From assembly GCA_026770575.1 (NCBI GenBank), contig MU657211.1, positions 187,141-243,856 of the forward strand: a DNA stretch of 56,716 bases. The letters run 5' to 3'. The notes under the pieces are model-generated. The model had not been told where the DNA came from and made no database searches. It saw only the letters and a list, made by a program, of their open reading frames with translations. Source of the stretch: Pelagophyceae sp. CCMP2097 (lineage: Eukaryota; Sar; Pelagophyceae). Shown here piece by piece: positions 19,001 through 28,211 of this stretch (the first letter of the stretch is position 1; each line of letters begins with the position of its first letter). The position numbers and the translations under genes are program-made.

Positions 19001-21508
19001 ATGCGCAAGTTCCGGCCCCGCACGTCGCTGGCGGGCCTCCGACCGCCGATCCGCCACTTCGCCGCCCATGGTCCGGCCGAAGCGCAGCTCTTCGTGCGCA
19101 ACCTGCCGAGCGGCGCCGAGGCGGACGACGTGCGCGGCGCCTTCGAAGCCGTATGCACCGTGCTGGGCGTCCGAGTTCCTTTGGACAACGCGACGGGCCA
19201 GTCGCGAGGCTTCGCCTTTGTGACCATCGAGGCGGCGGAGTGCGACGTCGTGCGCCGCGAGATGGACGGTGCGCTCTTGGGCGGCCGCAAGATTGCGGCG
19301 CAACTCGCAACAGCTTCCAGCAAGGCGCCGGCTCACTCATCGAGCCGGTCGCAGCGTTCCGGCGGCAAGGCAGCGGCGATCGCGCTGAACAAGCAGCTCA
19401 TCTCCAGCGAGACCGCCGCCGACGTCCTGTCGCTCTTCGAGAACAAGGGCGGCGATTTCAACTACGTCAACTTTGCGACGGCGCTCCATCGCCTCGGAGT
19501 CCTCAGCCGCTCGTTCCACACGTCATCTCGGCCGCTCCTGCACAAGTTGGTGGAACGCGCTGTTTCGAGCATTAGAAACGAGTCGAACCAGTGGGAATCA
19601 CGCGAACTTGCGAGTGCGAGCTGGGGTATTGCCAAGATTGGCAACGTCGAAGCGCCGGCGCTGTTTGAGGCGGTCGCCGGAGAGGCAACAAAGAAGATCG
19701 CGGCGTTCAATTCACTATCACTCGCGAACATCGTGTGGGCCTATGCGACGGCGGAAGTGGAGGCGCCGGCGCTGTTCAAGGCGGTCGCCGCAGAGGCATC
19801 AAAGAAGATCGCGACGTTCAACTCGCAAAATCTCGCGAACACCGTGTGGGCTTATGCGACGGCGAGAGTCGAGGCGCCGGCGCTGTTTGAGGCGGTCGCC
19901 GCAGAGGCACCAAAGAAGATCGCGACGTTTAATTCCCAAGAGCTCGCGAACACCGCGTGGGCTTATGCGGCGGCAGGAGTCGAGGCGCCGGCGCTGTTCG
20001 AGGCCGTCGCCCGAGAAGCACCGAAGAAGATTGCCACGTTCAATTCGCAAAACCTCGCAAACACTGTGTGGGCCTTCTCGACGGCGGGCGTCGCGGCGCC
20101 GGCGCTGTTCAAGGCGGTCGCCACAGAAGCGCCGTCGAAGATCGCAACGTTCCTCCCGCAGAACCTCGCAAACACCGTGTGGGCTTATGCGACGGCGGGA
20201 GTCGAGGCGCCGGCGCTCTTCGAGGCGGTCGCCGCAGAGGCACCAAAGAATATCGCGACGTTCCACTCGCAAGCGCTCGCAAACACCGCGTGGGCTTATG
20301 CGACGGCGGGCGTCGCGGCGCCAAGGCTGTTCAATGCAGTCGCCGCAGAAGCATCGAAGAAGATCGCGACGTTCACCGCGCAAGCGCTCGCAAACACCGT
20401 GTGGGCATATGCGACGGCAGGAGTCGAGGCGCCGACGCTGTTCGAGGCGATCGCTGGGGAATCATCAAAGAAGATCGCGGCGTTCAATTCACAATCGCTC
20501 GCGAACACCGTGTGGGCATATGCGACGGCAGGAGTCGCGGCGCCGGCGCTGTTCGAGGTGATTGCCGCTGAAGCATCAAAGAAGATAGCGACTTTCGATT
20601 CGCAAGCGCTCGCAAACACTGTGTGGGCTTATGCGACGGCGGGAGTCGAGGCGCCGGCGCTGTTCGAGGCGGTCGCCGCAGAGGCACCAAAGAAGATCGC
20701 GTCCTTCAACACGCAAAACCTCCCAAACACCGTTTGGGCTTATGCGACGGCGGGTGTCGTGGCGCCGGCGCTGTTCGAGGCGTTTGCGTTGAGAATCAAA
20801 GCGAAGATCAGCGAGTTCAGTCCCGGCGCGCTGTCTCAGTTGCATCAAGTCTACGTTCATCTGCGACTAGAGGCGCCGCAGCACGCATTGACTTTAATGC
20901 TGAGTCGGCACGAGGCAGACATTCGTGCAGCTTATGGTCGTCAAGAGCCGAGTCCATCTCGAACGCAGCATGATGTGTCGGCGGCGCTCTCCAGCATCGG
21001 ATGGGCGCATGAGTTCGAGCACGTCACTGCCGAAGGGATCAGCCTCGATATGGCGCAGCCGGAGTCAAAGGTTGCGGTGGAGTTCGACGGCCCGAAGCAT
21101 TATCTCGTGGGCTCGTCGGATGGCGTTTCGACTCGCGTGCTCGACGGCACGTCCAACTTCAAGGAGAGGCTTCTCCGCCGTCTGGGCTGGAAGCTGGTCC
21201 GCGTGCCTTACTTTGAATGGGACGTGCTGCAGTCGGGTGCCGAACGAGAAGCTTACCTGCGCGACGGAATGGCCGCCGCGTTGAGTCCGAACCGAGACGC
21301 CGCTGTCCAGTCGGCGGACGGAGGCGATGCGCCGGCGACGAAGGGCGAGGCTGCGAGCCGCGAGTGCGGCGAAGCAGCGTACTCGCGGATGACGGTCAAG
21401 GATCTCAAGGGGCTCTTGAAAGAGCGTGGCCTCAAGCAGGCGGGCCTCAAGAGGGAGCTCGTCCAGCGGTTCGAGGAGGACGACGAGAGGCGGAGGAACG
21501 CTGTCTGA
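19001..21508 (+). CDS. RRM, 37-residue helical repeat, RAP and SAP organelle RNA-binding protein
   Basis: Single exon, 835 residues. The N-terminus MRKFRPRTSLAGLRPPIRHF is Arg-rich without acids, like a mitochondrial or plastid leader. An RRM follows (residues about 28-105: LFVRNL as RNP2, RGFAFVTI as RNP1). From nucleotide 19658 there are ten nearly identical 37-residue units of the pattern ALFEAVAAEAxKKIATFNSQ, then LANTVWAYATAGVEAP, and an eleventh degenerate unit. Next is a RAP domain (about 670-745; VAVEFDGPKHYL and LGWKLVRVPYFEW) and a SAP motif (about 793-827; TVKDLKGLLKERGLKQ). Repeat plus RAP proteins (octotrico- and heptatricopeptide classes) bind and process organellar RNA; the 37-residue length fits the heptatricopeptide type. 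Adding RRM and SAP ends to one chain is uncommon. Confidence 0.88.
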   Translation: MRKFRPRTSLAGLRPPIRHFAAHGPAEAQLFVRNLPSGAEADDVRGAFEAVCTVLGVRVPLDNATGQSRGFAFVTIEAAECDVVRREMDGALLGGRKIAAQLATASSKAPAHSSSRSQRSGGKAAAIALNKQLISSETAADVLSLFENKGGDFNYVNFATALHRLGVLSRSFHTSSRPLLHKLVERAVSSIRNESNQWESRELASASWGIAKIGNVEAPALFEAVAGEATKKIAAFNSLSLANIVWAYATAEVEAPALFKAVAAEASKKIATFNSQNLANTVWAYATARVEAPALFEAVAAEAPKKIATFNSQELANTAWAYAAAGVEAPALFEAVAREAPKKIATFNSQNLANTVWAFSTAGVAAPALFKAVATEAPSKIATFLPQNLANTVWAYATAGVEAPALFEAVAAEAPKNIATFHSQALANTAWAYATAGVAAPRLFNAVAAEASKKIATFTAQALANTVWAYATAGVEAPTLFEAIAGESSKKIAAFNSQSLANTVWAYATAGVAAPALFEVIAAEASKKIATFDSQALANTVWAYATAGVEAPALFEAVAAEAPKKIASFNTQNLPNTVWAYATAGVVAPALFEAFALRIKAKISEFSPGALSQLHQVYVHLRLEAPQHALTLMLSRHEADIRAAYGRQEPSPSRTQHDVSAALSSIGWAHEFEHVTAEGISLDMAQPESKVAVEFDGPKHYLVGSSDGVSTRVLDGTSNFKERLLRRLGWKLVRVPYFEWDVLQSGAEREAYLRDGMAAALSPNRDAAVQSADGGDAPATKGEAASRECGEAAYSRMTVKDLKGLLKERGLKQAGLKRELVQRFEEDDERRRNAV
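19658..20878 (+). repeat. in-frame 111-bp tandem repeat array, about 11 units
   Basis: Ten well-conserved 111-nt units plus one diverged unit encode the 37-residue helical repeats. Positions 12-16 and 19-21 of each unit vary most (for example NSQNL, NSQEL, LPQNL, HSQAL, TAQAL, DSQAL), the kind of pattern expected for base-contacting residues. Confidence 0.9.
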
Positions 21509-21992
21509 TTGATAACGCTGTATAATACGTCCACTTGTCCACTTGCACACTCTTCGGACTAGCCCTCCTACGGCTACTCCACCAAGAAGAGGGACCCGCA
21601 GCGACGCCGTGGATTTGGTGCGGAACACTTTTTTAAAGATCACTACTCGTGTATCGGGGGCCGGGTGCCCACCCGAAACGCGCGAGCCGTCAGGCCGTCG
21701 TCGAGTGTGAGCTGGCGCGTGCGCGAAGAGAGCACGTCGGTGGTAGTAGGTCGATTGCAGCCACCCGCGGCACTCGCCCAGGATGAAGTCTGGGTCTGTG
21801 TCGCATGTTGGGTGGTGGGGTGTTCGGGCGGACGTGTCACACTTTTTAAGGTGACACGTCCTCCGTCATAAATCTGCAAATCGCGGCGGTTTCCACCGAC
21901 GGTTCCTCGTTGCGTGCGCGCCGGCTTCACGCTTCTCGACCTTGACGCCGCCGGGAGCGCGCGAGTCTAGGGCGCCGCGGGGGAGAGCTCGC
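21509..21992. other. convergent 3' region between RAP gene and selenoprotein PDI
   Basis: Holds the 3' UTRs of the RAP protein (+) and the PDI (-). The only strong structure is the 11-bp perfect hairpin at about 21830-21861, listed separately as a candidate SECIS. Confidence 0.6.
21821..21875 (-). promoter_or_regulatory. candidate SECIS element in the PDI 3' UTR
   Basis: Read on the minus strand, starting about 124 nt after the PDI stop codon. ATGA (21869-21866) is followed by a stem GGACGTGTCAC pairing perfectly with GTGACACGTCC, capped by a 10-nt loop with five A residues, and then GCCCGAA. This gives the SECIS elements ATGA, helix, A-rich apical loop, and GA of the 3' quartet. The distance from ATGA to the loop A run (18 nt) is longer than in most eukaryotic SECIS, so the assignment is provisional. 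Location and structure fit a TGA-containing gene. Confidence 0.5.
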
Positions 21993-22910
21993 TTAGAGCT
22001 CGTCCTTCTTGGGCATCGAAGCCAACACCGACTTCATGATGCCGAGGCCGGCCTCCTTGATGGCCGCGAGCTTGTCCTCCTTGGTCTTGGTGAACTCCTC
22101 GTACTGCTTCTGCAGCGTCTCGACGGACGTCTTGAACGTCGTCTCGACTTCGGCGAGCTCGGCCTCGGCCGCGTCGACGAGGGCCTTGAGCGCCACGGCA
22201 TCCATGGCCTGGAACTTGATGATCTCCGCCTTCTTCGCGGCGTCGCAGATGTCGATATTCTTCGGCGAGCACATGGGGTTGAGCTTCTCCTCAGCGAACT
22301 TCTTCAGGGCCTTGTCGTCGCGGCCGCCCTCGTACTTCTGTAAGTCGGCCGGGTCCCCGTACCTATCACATCAGAGTGAGCTTTCTTCACAGCCCAAGAG
22401 GCCCGCGTCTACGCACAGGATGGTCGGGAAGCCCTTGACACCGTTGGAGTCACAGAGAGGCTTGCCCGTCGACGTGCAGTCGACATCGCCGACGAGCTTG
22501 GTGGGATGGTCCTTGTAATCAGACATCAGGGCGTCCCAAGCGGGCCTAGAGGCGATGGACGTCTCGCGCGATGCCCGGGGGGTCCCGCCGCCGCTTCGCA
22601 CGCGAACGAAATATTTCAGGCGACTCGTGGGCGACTTCTTTCATTGAAAGACGCCGGGCGACGCACTTCATCTTCTTGCAGTGGCCTCACCAAGGCGCCA
22701 AGAATTTGATGAAGACCTATAGGCGCGCGCGGTCGAGGTGCACGCCAGAGGCGAGCGACTCGCGACGTTACAAATATTTCCCCAAAAAGAGGTGGCGCAA
22801 AAGAGGTGGCGCCGCACAGTCTTCCCAGCAACTGCGTTGTCGTAGTTGTCGGGAGTGAGCTCCATGGCCGAGGCCGCGCCGAGCGCGAGGGCGAGGACGA
22901 ACTTCATCAT
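21993..22910 (-). CDS. selenoprotein protein disulfide isomerase (WUGHC active site, KDEL)
   Basis: Four exons: 22910-22818, 22716-22667, 22545-22417 and 22362-21993, giving 213 residues counting TGA as selenocysteine. MMKFVLALALGAASAMELTP is a signal peptide. Exon 2 reads VFIKFLAPW-TGA-GHCKKMK (TGA at 22689-22687). Every PDI has W-C-G-H-C-K there, so the TGA replaces exactly the first catalytic cysteine and the frame stays open after it. Exon 3 gives PAWDALMSDYKDHP, VGDVDCTSTGKPLC and KGFPTIL (the cis-Pro loop of the thioredoxin fold). Exon 4 is a helical tail ending in KDEL for ER retention. PDI oxidises and isomerises disulfides in the ER; selenocysteine should raise reactivity. PDI-like selenoproteins are known from microalgae. 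Reading the TGA as a stop would leave a 40-residue stub, which the conserved downstream sequence argues against. Confidence 0.85.
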
Positions 22911-23086: not shown

Positions 23087-24591
23087 TTAAAGGAAGCCGC
23101 ACTTTGCGATTTCTTGCTTGCCTATTTCATTGTGCCCGCTTCGCGCGTTGCACTGGAAGTTCGTGCCGAGGGACTGGACGTAGTGGATCCAGAGGTGCGG
23201 GATGTACAAGACGTCGCCGGCTTCCAGGATTGCTTCAAACGCGCGCAGCTCTTGGAAGAGGGGAAACTTGTCCGCGTCGACGGGCCGCGACCAGTCGACC
23301 TGCGAGTGCCTGCCCGAGGGGTGGCCGCGCGGCAGCAGGTAGGCGTGGGCGCACTCGCGCGGCGCGGCCATGACGTATCTCCGCCGGCCCGAGTTGGCAT
23401 GGCTCGGCGGGCCTCCGAGTTCCGCGACAAAGTTTCTGGAGCCGTCGTAGTGCGCCTCCGCTACGATCCCAGCCGCGCCGAAGCGGCAGTGCGCGCCCTT
23501 GGACAGCTTCGGGAACGGCACGAAGAGCGACCTGCACACGGGGGGTCGTCGCGCGGCAAAGCGGGCCCGCGTACGCACTCCTCTGCCGTGAAGATTGGCA
23601 CGTCCTGCGACGTCACGTCGGGCGGCGAGACTCGGAAGTAGTAGTGCGGCTCTAGAATAGTCGTGTTGTAGCTCCGCGCGGCGGACTCGAGCCACTGTGC
23701 ATAAGTCATCCTGACGTCGGTCGTGGGTCTTTGCCACTCGCCGGGCGTGCGGCTGCCCTGGCCATAGTACATAAAGTGGTTGTCGTCGCTCCGCTCCGCC
23801 GTGTACGACCGTCTACCGAGGCGTTTCTCCAAGAAGCCGGGCGTCGACCACTGCGCCGCCGTCTCCATCGCCGCGGCGTTGTTCACGACAATAAACGGCA
23901 ATTCGGCGTCGCGGAACTTGACGGCAGCGGCGTGCTGCAGCTCGTCGTTGTAGTCGAAGCGACAGAGCGAGGCGTAGTGCCGCGGCGGCACTTCTATCGT
24001 GTCGGGCGGCCAGTTTGACGTGAGTTCCAGGATGCCGTACGCGCGCGGGTACGCTGCTTCGACGGGGCCGTCCTGGTCCGTCGCTTTTCGAGCGTCGACG
24101 CCGCGGCTCAATAGGTAGACGTAGCGCGCGCAGTCTAGACTGATGGGGTCGACGGACACAGAGTCTTTTGAATGCGTCGTGTAGTGGCCTCGCCCCAGCG
24201 CTCCTTCGACGCTGTCGACGGCCGCGAGCCTTACCGCCTCGATGGCATTTAAAGACCCCATGTAGACGCCGCCCGGCTCGGACGCGGCGCGCCAGGCGCC
24301 CTTCCAAGTGGCGCCGACGGTTCCTATTCGCCGGAACGCGGCCAGCGGCTTCTCGTAGGACCCCGCCGCGCGGAGCCGCTGCAGCGCCGCCGCCGCCGCG
24401 ACGGCCGTGGCGCCCAGCGGCGCGTCGCGCGGCGCACTTGATGCGCCGGCGGCGAAGTGTGCGATCGCAAACGAGGTGGCCGCGACGCCCACTAAGAGCA
24501 CGACGAAGAGGCACAGCGCCGAGTTTCCGCGACGGCTCCGTCGCAGGTCCCTCCGCTGCGGCGCCTGCGGGCCGCGCCGCATCGAACTCAT
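23087..24591 (-). CDS. membrane-anchored JmjC/cupin-8 Fe(II)/2-oxoglutarate oxygenase
   Basis: Two exons, 24591-23579 and 23531-23087, joined by a 47-nt GTGCGT...GCAG intron, giving 485 residues. After an Arg-rich N-terminus comes one membrane segment (ALCLFVVLLVGVAATSFAIA), giving type II topology. The middle part is unassigned. The C-terminal half is a cupin-8/JmjC domain: IVAEAHYDGSRNFV supplies the HxD pair, RRYVMAAPRE is the 2-oxoglutarate strand, GDVLYIPHLWIHYVQSLG supplies the distal His. The metal triad is intact. Such enzymes hydroxylate proteins or act as demethylases; a lumenal catalytic domain points to the secretory pathway. The start is the ATG after an in-frame GTG. Confidence 0.75.
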
Positions 24592-24788: not shown

Positions 24789-26411
24789 TTAGAAGAGCCG
24801 TAGCCAGTCTTCTACGGCGGCTGCGGCGTCGTAAGGTGTGCGCGGCAGCGCGGAGATGACGGCGATGGAATCTGCGCCGGCGCGGACCACACTGGCGGCA
24901 GTGTCGAGCGTGATGCCGCCGATGCAGACGAGCGGCGTCGTCGGCGGCAGCAAAGCGCGCCACCTTGAGACCATGTCGACGCCGCGCGGCGAAAAGGGCA
25001 CGGACTTTGACGTGGTGCCGAAGATGGGCCCGAGAGCGACGTACGACGGCCGCAGCTGCAGCGCCAGGGCCAGCTCCGACTCGCAGTGCGTCGAGAGGCC
25101 CAGGCGCAGGCCGCTCTCTAAAAGCTCGTTGAGATCCGCGGGTGTGGCGGCCTCCAAGTCCTCCTGGCCGAGGTGGACGCCGTAGGCTCCATGTTTCGCA
25201 GCCAGCCGCCAATGGTCGTTCACCCAGAGGCGCTTGTTGCACCGCCGCGCCGCCGAGACGCAAGAGACGACGGCGGCATCGACGTCGTCCAACGATTGGT
25301 CCTTGACGCGGAGCTGCACGTCGGAAACGCCCAGGTCGAAGAGCTCTTCACACCGCGACGCTGAGTCGCCAATCGCATAGAGGCCCATCGCCGCGCACCC
25401 ATCCAGCGTTGGCGGCGGGAACGCGGCGTTGTCGGCGAAGAACGAATCGAACGCCGGCACGTCGCGCCGCAGCGTCGGGCACGCGTCGCCCTGGACAGGC
25501 CACGTCTGCGACGCCAGTGCGGCTGGCGCGCCCGCGCCCAACTTCGGCGCGTTGGCAATGGCGGCGTGGCAGACGCCCTTGGCGACGACTAAAGCGTCGA
25601 GCATGGGTGCGCCCGACGCCAGGGCGGCGGCTAGAGCGCTGGAGAGCACGCAGCCGGTCCCGTGCGCGCCGCCGGCCACCGCGTCCTCGAGCCGCGGCGA
25701 GGCGAGCCACCAGGCGGCGTTTCCATCGTAAAAGTAGTCGCGGCACCAGGCGGTGTCGGCGTCCCAGTGGCCGCCCTTTAACAAAATGGACTTTGCCTTG
25801 GTCTGCTCCACGAGCGCCGCGGCCGCGCGCCGGACGTCGGCCGGCGCCGAGATGGCGCCGGCGGCCCAGCCCAAAAGCTGCTCGGCCTCGCGCGCGTTGG
25901 GCGTGAGCACGTCGCAGCGGGGGAGCACGCGGCTCAGGACGACTGCGCGGCCTTCGTCGTCGATCAACTTCGTGCCCGACGACGACGCAAGCAGCGGGTC
26001 GACGACGACGCGGCAGTGTTTGGGCTTGCGGGCCTCGAAATAATCAGCGACTTCAATCGCCGTGGCCGCCGTGCAGAGCATGCCGACCTTGACCGCGTCT
26101 GGCGCGAGGTCGACCTCGAGCGCGGCCAGCGTCGCTCGGACGTGCGCCGCCGGCGTCACGGCGACGCCGAAGACGCCTAGCGTGTTCTGCGCCGTCAGCC
26201 CCGTGACGACGCTGCAGCCGTGCACGCCCAGGGCGTGGAAGGCGCGGAGGTCCGCCTCGACCCCGGCGCCGCCGCCAGAGTCCGACCCGGCAATAGTCCA
26301 CGCTATAGGCCGCTTCGACACCGCGCTCAGCGCCCGCGCGCCCGAGCGGCCGCCCACGGCGCACAGCAAGAGGCACCGCCGCGCAAACGCGCGCGCGGCG
26401 GGCCGAGCCAT
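24789..26411 (-). CDS. bifunctional ThiD-ThiE: HMP-P kinase / thiamine phosphate synthase
   Basis: Single exon, about 540 residues. An Arg/Ala-rich leader of about 35 residues ([20 protein letters not shown]) looks like an organelle-targeting or signal sequence. The ThiD half follows: [45 protein letters not shown] and the anion-hole [16 protein letters not shown]. From about residue 300 the ThiE half shows [39 protein letters not shown] and VCIGGITLD. ThiD phosphorylates HMP-P to HMP-PP and ThiE couples it to thiazole phosphate, giving thiamine phosphate. This is the order of plant TH1-type enzymes. No TPP aptamer (CTGAGA with a downstream ACC/GCG core) was seen in either flank. Confidence 0.92.
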
Positions 26412-26613
26412 GCTTCCACGGGACGACGACGTCACGACGTCTCGAGTTCCCGATACGACCGTAACGACGATAAGGAGAATTTGTGCAGGGTTGACAACAG
26501 TTTCAAGTTGTACGAGTCTTTCGTCGAATCAGCGTCGACGGACTCGTCACGGAGCTCGTCGACGGCGCGCGCCCTTGCTTGGCGCGGGTGCGGGAGGCCC
26601 GCGGGCGGCCTCG

Positions 26614-28211
26614 ATGGCGAAGCTCGAGCCATCGCCGGTGGCCACCGACGACGGCGGCGCGGACCGGACTGCTGCGCGGAGCCGCATCGGGGCCTTGGAA
26701 GAGGAGCTCAAGTCGCTGCGCGCGGCGAACCGATTGCTCGAGACGGAGCTGCGCGAGACTACCGAGACCATGTCGGCCAACGTCGAGGACCGGGACCGCG
26801 TCATCGCCATGAAAGGGCAAATCATCCAGGATTTGGTGCACCAGCGCGCCGAGTACGTAGCTCTGCGCAGCCGAGGGGCCCATACGATTATTCTGGCGCA
26901 GGATCGAGCGCGGCATCGCCACGACGAAGGAGCGCCACCACGTGCGTCCCCGGGGATGGCTCGCTTCGGGCCGCCTCGCGCGCCTCTTGACGCGCGCGAA
27001 AAGGCGCTCTTCGCGTCCTCCGCGACCGAGTACACGGCCAAGCGCCTCTCCATGGAACGCGAGGGCGAAGAGGTGGAGCTGCAGCTCGAAAAGTTCGGCA
27101 AGCTCCAGCTCCAGCGCACCGTCCGCGCCAGCGTCGAAGGCAGCCTGTTGTGGCTCGCGGACAGACTGCTTCGGCGCATGCCCGTGCACGAGGCATGAGG
27201 GTTACCGGCAAGGAGTGACAAGAGCGATGCATGCCTCGACGCTCGAGACTGTGGCTCTTGCGGGCTCTGTCCGAAGTCGCTGGTCGACGTCGCCCGCGCA
27301 GGCGCTGACGGACGAGCTATACGCTGCGCGCGCCGACTTCGACGCCGTCGTGGCTGAGCAGGCGCAGGCCATGGCCGCTTTTGAGGACAAGATCAAAGCC
27401 GAGGAGCTCGGCTGGGTCCAGGAGCTGGCGTGCGTGTCCTCGGGAGTCGTGGCCGGCGTGTCCTTGAGAGGCCCTCGGGCGGCGTTGAGCGGCCCTTAGG
27501 CGGTCCGCCGAGGCGTCTGCGAAGAAGCAAAAGGAGATTGTGGACAACGTCACTCTAAAGTTCGACACCATGCAGCGCGAGCACCGCGAGATGCAGCGGA
27601 GAATGCGCCACCAGGCCCTGGCCATCGGCCGGCTGCTGGATGAGAACAAGGCCAAGCTCGAGGCCAAAACTTTGAAACGCGTCGAGTACGATTCTTTAGT
27701 CGAGGAAAACGCCCTCTCGCACAAAAAGCTCGGCCGCCTCGCGCACGCCGCCGAGCAGGCCTCCTTCCTCGGCTTCGGCGACTCGACGCTCGCCACGATC
27801 GACGGAAGCACGTTTGGGGCGCACTTTGCGCTCCACGCCTCCGTCGACGGCTCGCTCGCCGCGTCGAGACAGCCGAGCCCGCCGCGGCCGTCGCCGGTCC
27901 TCGAGAGCCCCGCCTCTCAGCGCGCCTCGACGCCCGCGGCGCGCGCCTCGTCGCCGGCGCGCGACTATAGCGCTTCCGCGACGCCCACGGCGCCGCGGTT
28001 GCCGCAGCCGCCGCGCCGGGCGGCGAGCCAGTTCGTCATCAAGACGGGCAGGCAGCTCGTCGACCCGCGGGACGCGGAAGACGCGCCGCCCGGCTTTGAG
28101 CAGCTCGACGTTTGGTTGGGAGAAGCGCTCGAGAAGTCCGCCGCCGCGAGCAAGAGCCTCGACGTCTTCCTCGCCTCGGCGCCGTACCCCCGAAATCCCC
28201 GAAGCGAGTAA
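26614..28211 (+). CDS. coiled-coil protein
   Basis: Model: 26614-27183, 27302-27429 and 27500-28211, giving 469 residues. The first boundary (GTGCAC donor at 27184) is less certain than the GTGCGT...TTAG intron at 27430-27499. Heptad-rich helices recur: [60 protein letters not shown] and [20 protein letters not shown]. The last third is Ser/Pro/Ala-rich, with a short conserved-looking end ([15 protein letters not shown]). The stretch at 26860-26990 is a poor coding match and may hide another intron (possible GTAGCTC donor after RAEY). No family was recognised; a structural or scaffold role is inferred from the coiled coil alone. Confidence 0.6.

Follow-up and report, generated by a model that had tools for sequence, protein, structure and literature searches.

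A probable selenocysteine-containing disulfide isomerase of the endoplasmic reticulum in the pelagophyte CCMP2097

Does an in-frame TGA that falls on the first catalytic cysteine of a protein disulfide isomerase (PDI) gene break this gene, or is it read as selenocysteine (Sec)? The question is raised by a locus in a 56,716-nucleotide stretch (the window) of the genome of CCMP2097, an Arctic pelagophyte isolated from a sea-ice brine pocket (PMC9756366). A preliminary description of the window proposed that a KDEL-tailed PDI with one thioredoxin domain has Sec in place of its first active-site Cys. This proposal is supported by a hairpin downstream of the gene, by TGA codons in its paralogs, by purifying selection and by public open reading frames that start past the site. 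With a probability of about 0.94, the sequence evidence leads us to conclude that the gene encodes a single-thioredoxin PDI of the endoplasmic reticulum (ER) similar to EhSEP2 of Emiliania huxleyi, in which the UGA at codon 41 would be decoded as Sec under the direction of a SECIS element in the 3′UTR, thus creating a UGHC redox pair.

The preliminary description named neither the strand nor a SECIS element; it read LAPW-TGA-GHCKKMK in frame in a second exon and followed a thioredoxin-fold protein over four exons to a KDEL end. Splicing of the minus strand bore this out: the interval singled out is exactly exon 2, and the four exons, separated by introns of 101, 121 and 54 nt that all have GT...AG borders, form a CDS of 642 nt (Table 1). 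The translation, MMKFVLALALGAASAMELTPDNYDNAVAGKTVFIKFLAPW*GHCKKMK...KKDEL, comprises 213 residues with a single internal stop, the TGA at codon 41, and the frame is closed by TAA. The N-terminus encoded by exon 1, judged by eye, is likely a signal peptide, and the GFPTI stretch in exon 3 is what we take to be the cis-Pro loop. Pfam recognized one Thioredoxin stretch (residues 16-115) and assigned no family to the final ~90 residues, a charged tail that appears helical on visual inspection; the C-terminal KKDEL is an ER retention signal. Among solved structures, the best match was to the domains of TXNDC5 (ERp46; 8eky and 3wge), which have the thioredoxin fold and APWCGHC, and PDIA3 was also among the best. 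Unlike the window protein, TXNDC5 (8eky) has three matched thioredoxin domains and is a Cys form, the best stretch covering residues 16-119 with no match to the tail.

Table 1. Features of the putative Sec-PDI gene in the window, and loci of the same genome with a sense SECIS-like hairpin 3′ of the matched stretch
Feature	Position or locus	Strand	Remarks
Exon 1	22818..22910	-	ATG, hydrophobic N-terminus, start of thioredoxin domain; homologous to exon 1 of paralog C7
Exon 2	22667..22716	-	VFIKFLAPW-U-GHCKKMK, active site
Exon 3	22417..22545	-	thioredoxin domain including the GFPTI stretch
Exon 4	21993..22362	-	last part of thioredoxin domain, charged C-terminal tail with KDEL, TAA stop
In-frame TGA, codon 41	22687..22689	-	first Cys of CGHC; TGC in C7, TGA in C14 and C40
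KDEL ER-retention signal	21996..22007	-	sequence
SECIS-like element	21824..21869	-	stem with ATGAC at its 5′ side and CGA at its 3′ side, topped by an A-rich apical loop
PDI	L010 (C14), L005 (C40), L002 (C7)		hairpin downstream
GPx	L029, L030, L031, L032		hairpin downstream
Rdx	L024		hairpin downstream
SelM-like	L027		hairpin downstream; energy per base close to that of L032

Among the 120 best-matching relatives, 100 have a Cys at the site of the TGA. To see what stands there within the same genome, we can turn to the 22 stretches matched in a protein search of the genome, from which five paralogous genes (C7, C14, C40, C4 and C119) were read, the weaker matches on C42, C18, C60, C1, C22, C11, C28 and C8 being left aside. 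Including the window gene, three of the six genes read have TGA at the site and three have Cys. The closest, C7, encodes a protein (P0001, CCMP2097) that is 84% identical to the window product and reads FAPWCGHC, its TGC being one base away from the TGA in the window; C4 and C119 both read YAPWCGHC. The other two carry the stop codon, C14 within QAPW-TGA-GHC and C40 within LAPW-TGA-GHC, where the Trp codon immediately preceding the TGA is interrupted by an intron; both are probable further Sec-PDI genes. If so, a single pelagophyte would possess three probable PDI genes of this kind. The comparison of the window gene with C7 gave dN 0.085 and dS 1.395 (dN/dS 0.06) for codons 42-213, as compared to dN 0.204 and dS 0.606 for codons 1-40, thus indicating that the part downstream of the TGA is kept as protein. 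The claim that the TGA sits on the catalytic Cys beyond chance is strengthened by this selection, by the same codon being TGA in C14 and C40, and by the SECIS-like hairpin.

This hairpin, ATGACGGAGGACGTGTCACCTTAAAAAGTGTGACACGTCCGCCCGA, lies 123 nt past the stop codon of the PDI gene on the same strand. The 101-nt stretch bearing it folds with a z of -4.16, and its ATGA and GA sides, its A-rich loop and its likeness to elements of sibling genes make it a candidate SECIS. When the window was scanned on both strands for ATGACG followed by a hairpin and GA, with an energy cut-off of -0.40 kcal/mol per nt, a SECIS-like hairpin started at only one of 41 ATGACG hexamers, namely that of the PDI gene, the criteria and thresholds having been fixed post hoc with this element already seen. 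Dinucleotide shuffling of the 501-nt 3′ flank, at the slightly stricter cut-off of -0.45 (the real element has -0.62), gave 3 passing sequences per 1000 with ATGA and none per 1000 with ATGACG. A looser scan of the window, for any ATGA with AA in the loop, passed eight starts, the element of the PDI gene among them. In the latter element the A-run is 17 nt away from the quartet, which is long, vs. 13 nt in C7. An AA in the apical loop, as demanded in the strict scan, is present in the elements of the window gene, C7 and L024; those of C14, L029, L030 and C40 pass only when this demand is dropped. Known SECIS elements include ones with C-rich loops. These results come from a fold-and-motif scan. 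With the Rfam covariance models, neither the window locus nor seven sibling loci yielded a SECIS, so these models are non-discriminating here; across the eight loci fetched, they gave a lone sub-threshold microRNA match at L005, with no SECIS and no tRNA-Sec. A SECIS_4 search of the genome was uninformative because the controls were equally silent.

We extended the ATGACG-hairpin-GA scan to 22 fetched loci of the CCMP2097 genome. Sense elements 3′ of the matched stretch were found at nine of them, including GPx, Rdx and SelM-like loci as well as the three PDI paralogs C14, C40 and C7 (Table 1). No sense downstream hairpin was found at L003, L004, L008, L012, L014, L015, L016, L018, L019, L021, L025, L026 and L028; a sense match upstream of the matched stretch at L016 and antisense matches at L012 and L018 indicate that chance matches occur at some loci. 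Two neighbouring GPx copies (L031-L034, contig C111, 58327-60409) each have a TGA in the first of their matched stretches, and the SECIS-like hairpins downstream of L031 and L032 are identical.

With these data in hand, other explanations of the TGA may be weighed. A Cys gene broken by a TGC-to-TGA nonsense mutation, that is, a pseudogene in the making, would need just the one base by which the window gene differs from C7 at this codon. However, such a gene would hardly be expected to show a dN/dS of 0.06 past the TGA, intact splice sites, an intact KDEL and a SECIS-like hairpin, to share the TGA with C14 and C40, or to have, four residues upstream, the Leu typical of other non-Cys relatives (see below), and we regard this possibility as very improbable. 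We give equally little credence to the annotated 167-residue protein (M885DRAFT_521361) as the real product, which would begin at the Met beyond UGHC and lack both signal peptide and active site. It does correspond to a public protein: P0003 (CCMP2097) covers 78% of the query at 100% identity, its first residue being the Met immediately past the TGA; it represents a cluster at 90% identity that draws in part on MMETSP transcripts. Similarly, P0121 (MMETSP only) is 100% identical to the C40 product and starts at the Met past UGHC. Starts at this point are what one expects if a stop codon is present there in the RNA, and gene callers often shorten selenoproteins so that they begin past the Sec codon. 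Moreover, a protein without the active-site motif and the N-terminus would still have kept its KDEL, while exons 1 and 2 retain good splice sites and can be aligned with the Cys paralog over their whole length. If the Sec reading is true, the public gene model, devoid of the active site, would need correction.

There is also scarcely any likelihood, in our estimate, that UGA is reassigned or read by an ordinary tRNA (e.g., for Cys or Trp) with no selenium route involved. What speaks for it is the failure to find parts of the Sec machinery in the 66.2 Mb assembly, where the Rfam tRNA-Sec model gave none (53 of 5768 candidates scored), two tRNA-Sec patterns gave three matches, none of them tRNA-like (one checked with ARAGORN), and the selD/SPS model gave zero candidates. 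The absence of tRNA-Sec and SPS is weak evidence, since the assembly searched had 66.2 Mb vs. 85.8 Mb for the published one (PMC9756366). On the other hand, SepSecS is present in the genome, and TGA appears where selenoproteins would have it: inside four of six stretches matching GPx, as NVASx-TGA-G at L029 and L030, and inside both Sep15/SelM matches, where it follows CPG in the SelM-like L027, with SECIS-like hairpins downstream of L029, L030 and L027. One of three Rdx matches also has TGA; it is long, possibly spanning an intron, and contains two such codons. Furthermore, the stop codon after KDEL in C7 is itself TGA, so the genetic code is not simply reassigned, and a code reassignment was rejected on this ground. 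For Aureococcus, also a pelagophyte, 82 selenoprotein genes are predicted (PMC7539508), and a PDI is among its listed selenoproteins (PMC5917014).

Under the Sec reading, the protein would reside in the ER by virtue of its N-terminus and KDEL, UGA at codon 41 being read as Sec with the help of the 3′UTR hairpin. The selenolate at position 41 may then attack the substrate or form mixed Se-S bonds with it, and Cys44 would resolve them, as expected from what is known of Sec and PDI active-site chemistry. With Sec as the attacking residue, exchange should be faster and the site less prone to over-oxidation. By analogy with this chemistry, the UGHC enzyme presumably acts in thiol/disulfide exchange.

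The relatives of the window protein revealed a second position that changes together with the site. Three protein searches, each represented by its best 120 matches (of 2041, 349 and 5010), listed 285 distinct proteins. Among these, the motif x-A-P-W-x-G-H-C is present in 276, with Cys in 250 and another residue in 26 (22 W, 3 G, 1 R); seven of the nine listed proteins without it begin at a Met past the site. The 26 non-Cys proteins (P0009, P0018, P0028, P0029 and others with W, G or R) come mostly from metagenomes. TGA stands for W under genetic code 4 and for G under code 25, which gene callers for metagenomes may use, so most of these proteins probably derive from Sec genes hidden as Trp or Gly. 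Four residues upstream of the site (-4), the 26 non-Cys proteins listed have Leu (25) or Gln (1), while the 250 Cys proteins have Phe (229), Tyr (20) or Gln (1), i.e., Phe/Tyr in 249 of 250. The third search, with a W form as a query, favours W proteins; in the first two combined, among the matches listed, the split is 16 of 16 with Leu/Gln vs. 208 of 209 with Phe/Tyr. As related sequences are non-independent, the split should not be taken for a p-value. The genes read in CCMP2097 follow the same pattern, with L, L and Q in the putative Sec forms and F, Y and Y in the Cys forms. A looser difference concerns the second residue past the Pro of GFPT, where Ile replaces Leu in 24 of 26 non-Cys vs. 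33 of 250 Cys proteins listed; at this position, C40 and C14 have Leu and Val, respectively.

To follow the exchange along the family, trees were used. When 22 rows of a 124-row tree are labelled as presumed Sec, those starting past the site included, 12 changes are required, 7 of them forced by well-supported branches. In a quick 127-row tree built with both sites masked, and with C14, C40 and the rows starting past the site left out, the non-Cys label (27 rows) requires 14 changes, 3 of them forced, and the Leu/Gln label (28 rows) requires 15, with 4 forced. A few joint switches of Sec/Cys and of the -4 residue thus appear firm on these sequence data, and more are likely. In thioredoxins, the residue before A-x-W-C is aromatic and packs near the active site; the -4 residue corresponds to it and should likewise sit next to the active site in PDI. 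We therefore put forward, with the odds evenly balanced, that Sec and Cys were exchanged several times in this algal PDI family, each time along with the -4 residue (Phe/Tyr with Cys, Leu/Gln with Sec), which would mean that the selenium form needs a matching pocket, and that the window gene and C7, with its Cys, its Phe and a retained hairpin, represent such a switch caught in the act. The coupling can be tested directly by swapping the -4 residue in both enzymes. The closest precedent we have seen is mammalian GPX6, for which Sec loss with repeated accompanying changes has been described (PMC10958145).

The direction of the switch may be judged from C7. Its hairpin, ATGACGGCG...CGCCCGA, lies 63 nt past the stop codon and is likely a fossil SECIS, the term used for SECIS remnants in genes that have lost Sec (PMC2500217). 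In the 124-row tree, C7 joins the window gene (100/99) in a group whose other members (P0014, P0015, P0021, P0034 and P0116) each begin at the Met past the site and probably represent Sec forms; a Cys group including Chrysophaeum (P0004) is sister. The branches that nest C7 have moderate support (94/89, 90/54 and 82/61), and the bootstrap had not settled. With C7 nested among likely Sec forms and still having its hairpin, a Sec-to-Cys reversal is the likelier direction. The presence of a probable Sec gene and its 84% identical Cys twin in one genome would provide a natural experiment on the value of selenium to an ER PDI.

The enzyme type as such is already known. EhSEP2 (BAD98262.1) of the haptophyte E. 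huxleyi is described as a PDI-homologous protein with one thioredoxin domain and -UGHC-, and as the most abundant 75Se-labelled selenoprotein of this alga (PMC6254913). The window gene resembles it in having a single thioredoxin domain, PDI homology and TGA-GHC in frame at the active site, which would place Sec first in -UGHC-; it differs in belonging to a pelagophyte and in being known from sequence, and the likeness is one of description rather than of alignment. P0284, a diatom relative among the matches listed, bears the source name "disulfide-isomerase-like protein EhSep2". The algal selenoproteome survey sorts PDI selenoproteins into groups PDI_a to PDI_e (PMC7539508), and the window gene would belong to PDI_a, a PDI-like subfamily with a single Sec. 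The novelty suggested by the preliminary description therefore holds weakly, for this species rather than for the type: CCMP2097 is unnamed in the examined text of the same survey, no report combining CCMP2097 with selenoproteins was found in the literature searched, the CCMP2097 literature searched contains no word in "seleno-" and "selenium" once, and the motifs APWUGHC, LAPWU and WUGHC had no match in the literature searched. The Leu/Gln vs. Phe/Tyr split four residues upstream is perhaps new, and the supplementary alignments of the survey may show the Leu.

Several other frames of the window lie around the PDI gene. A frame at 23087-23737 on the minus strand, with a Cupin_8/JmjC_2-like domain, adjoins it. 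Convergent with it on the plus strand, a large open frame (19001-21508) with RRM, FAST_1-like repeats, RAP and SAP domains likely encodes an RNA-binding protein of the organellar repeat type. At 24789-27530 on the minus strand, a fused ThiD-ThiE (phosphomethylpyrimidine kinase and thiamine phosphate synthase) is encoded; the listed frame upstream of its domains has three TGAs read as U and is likely non-coding in that part.
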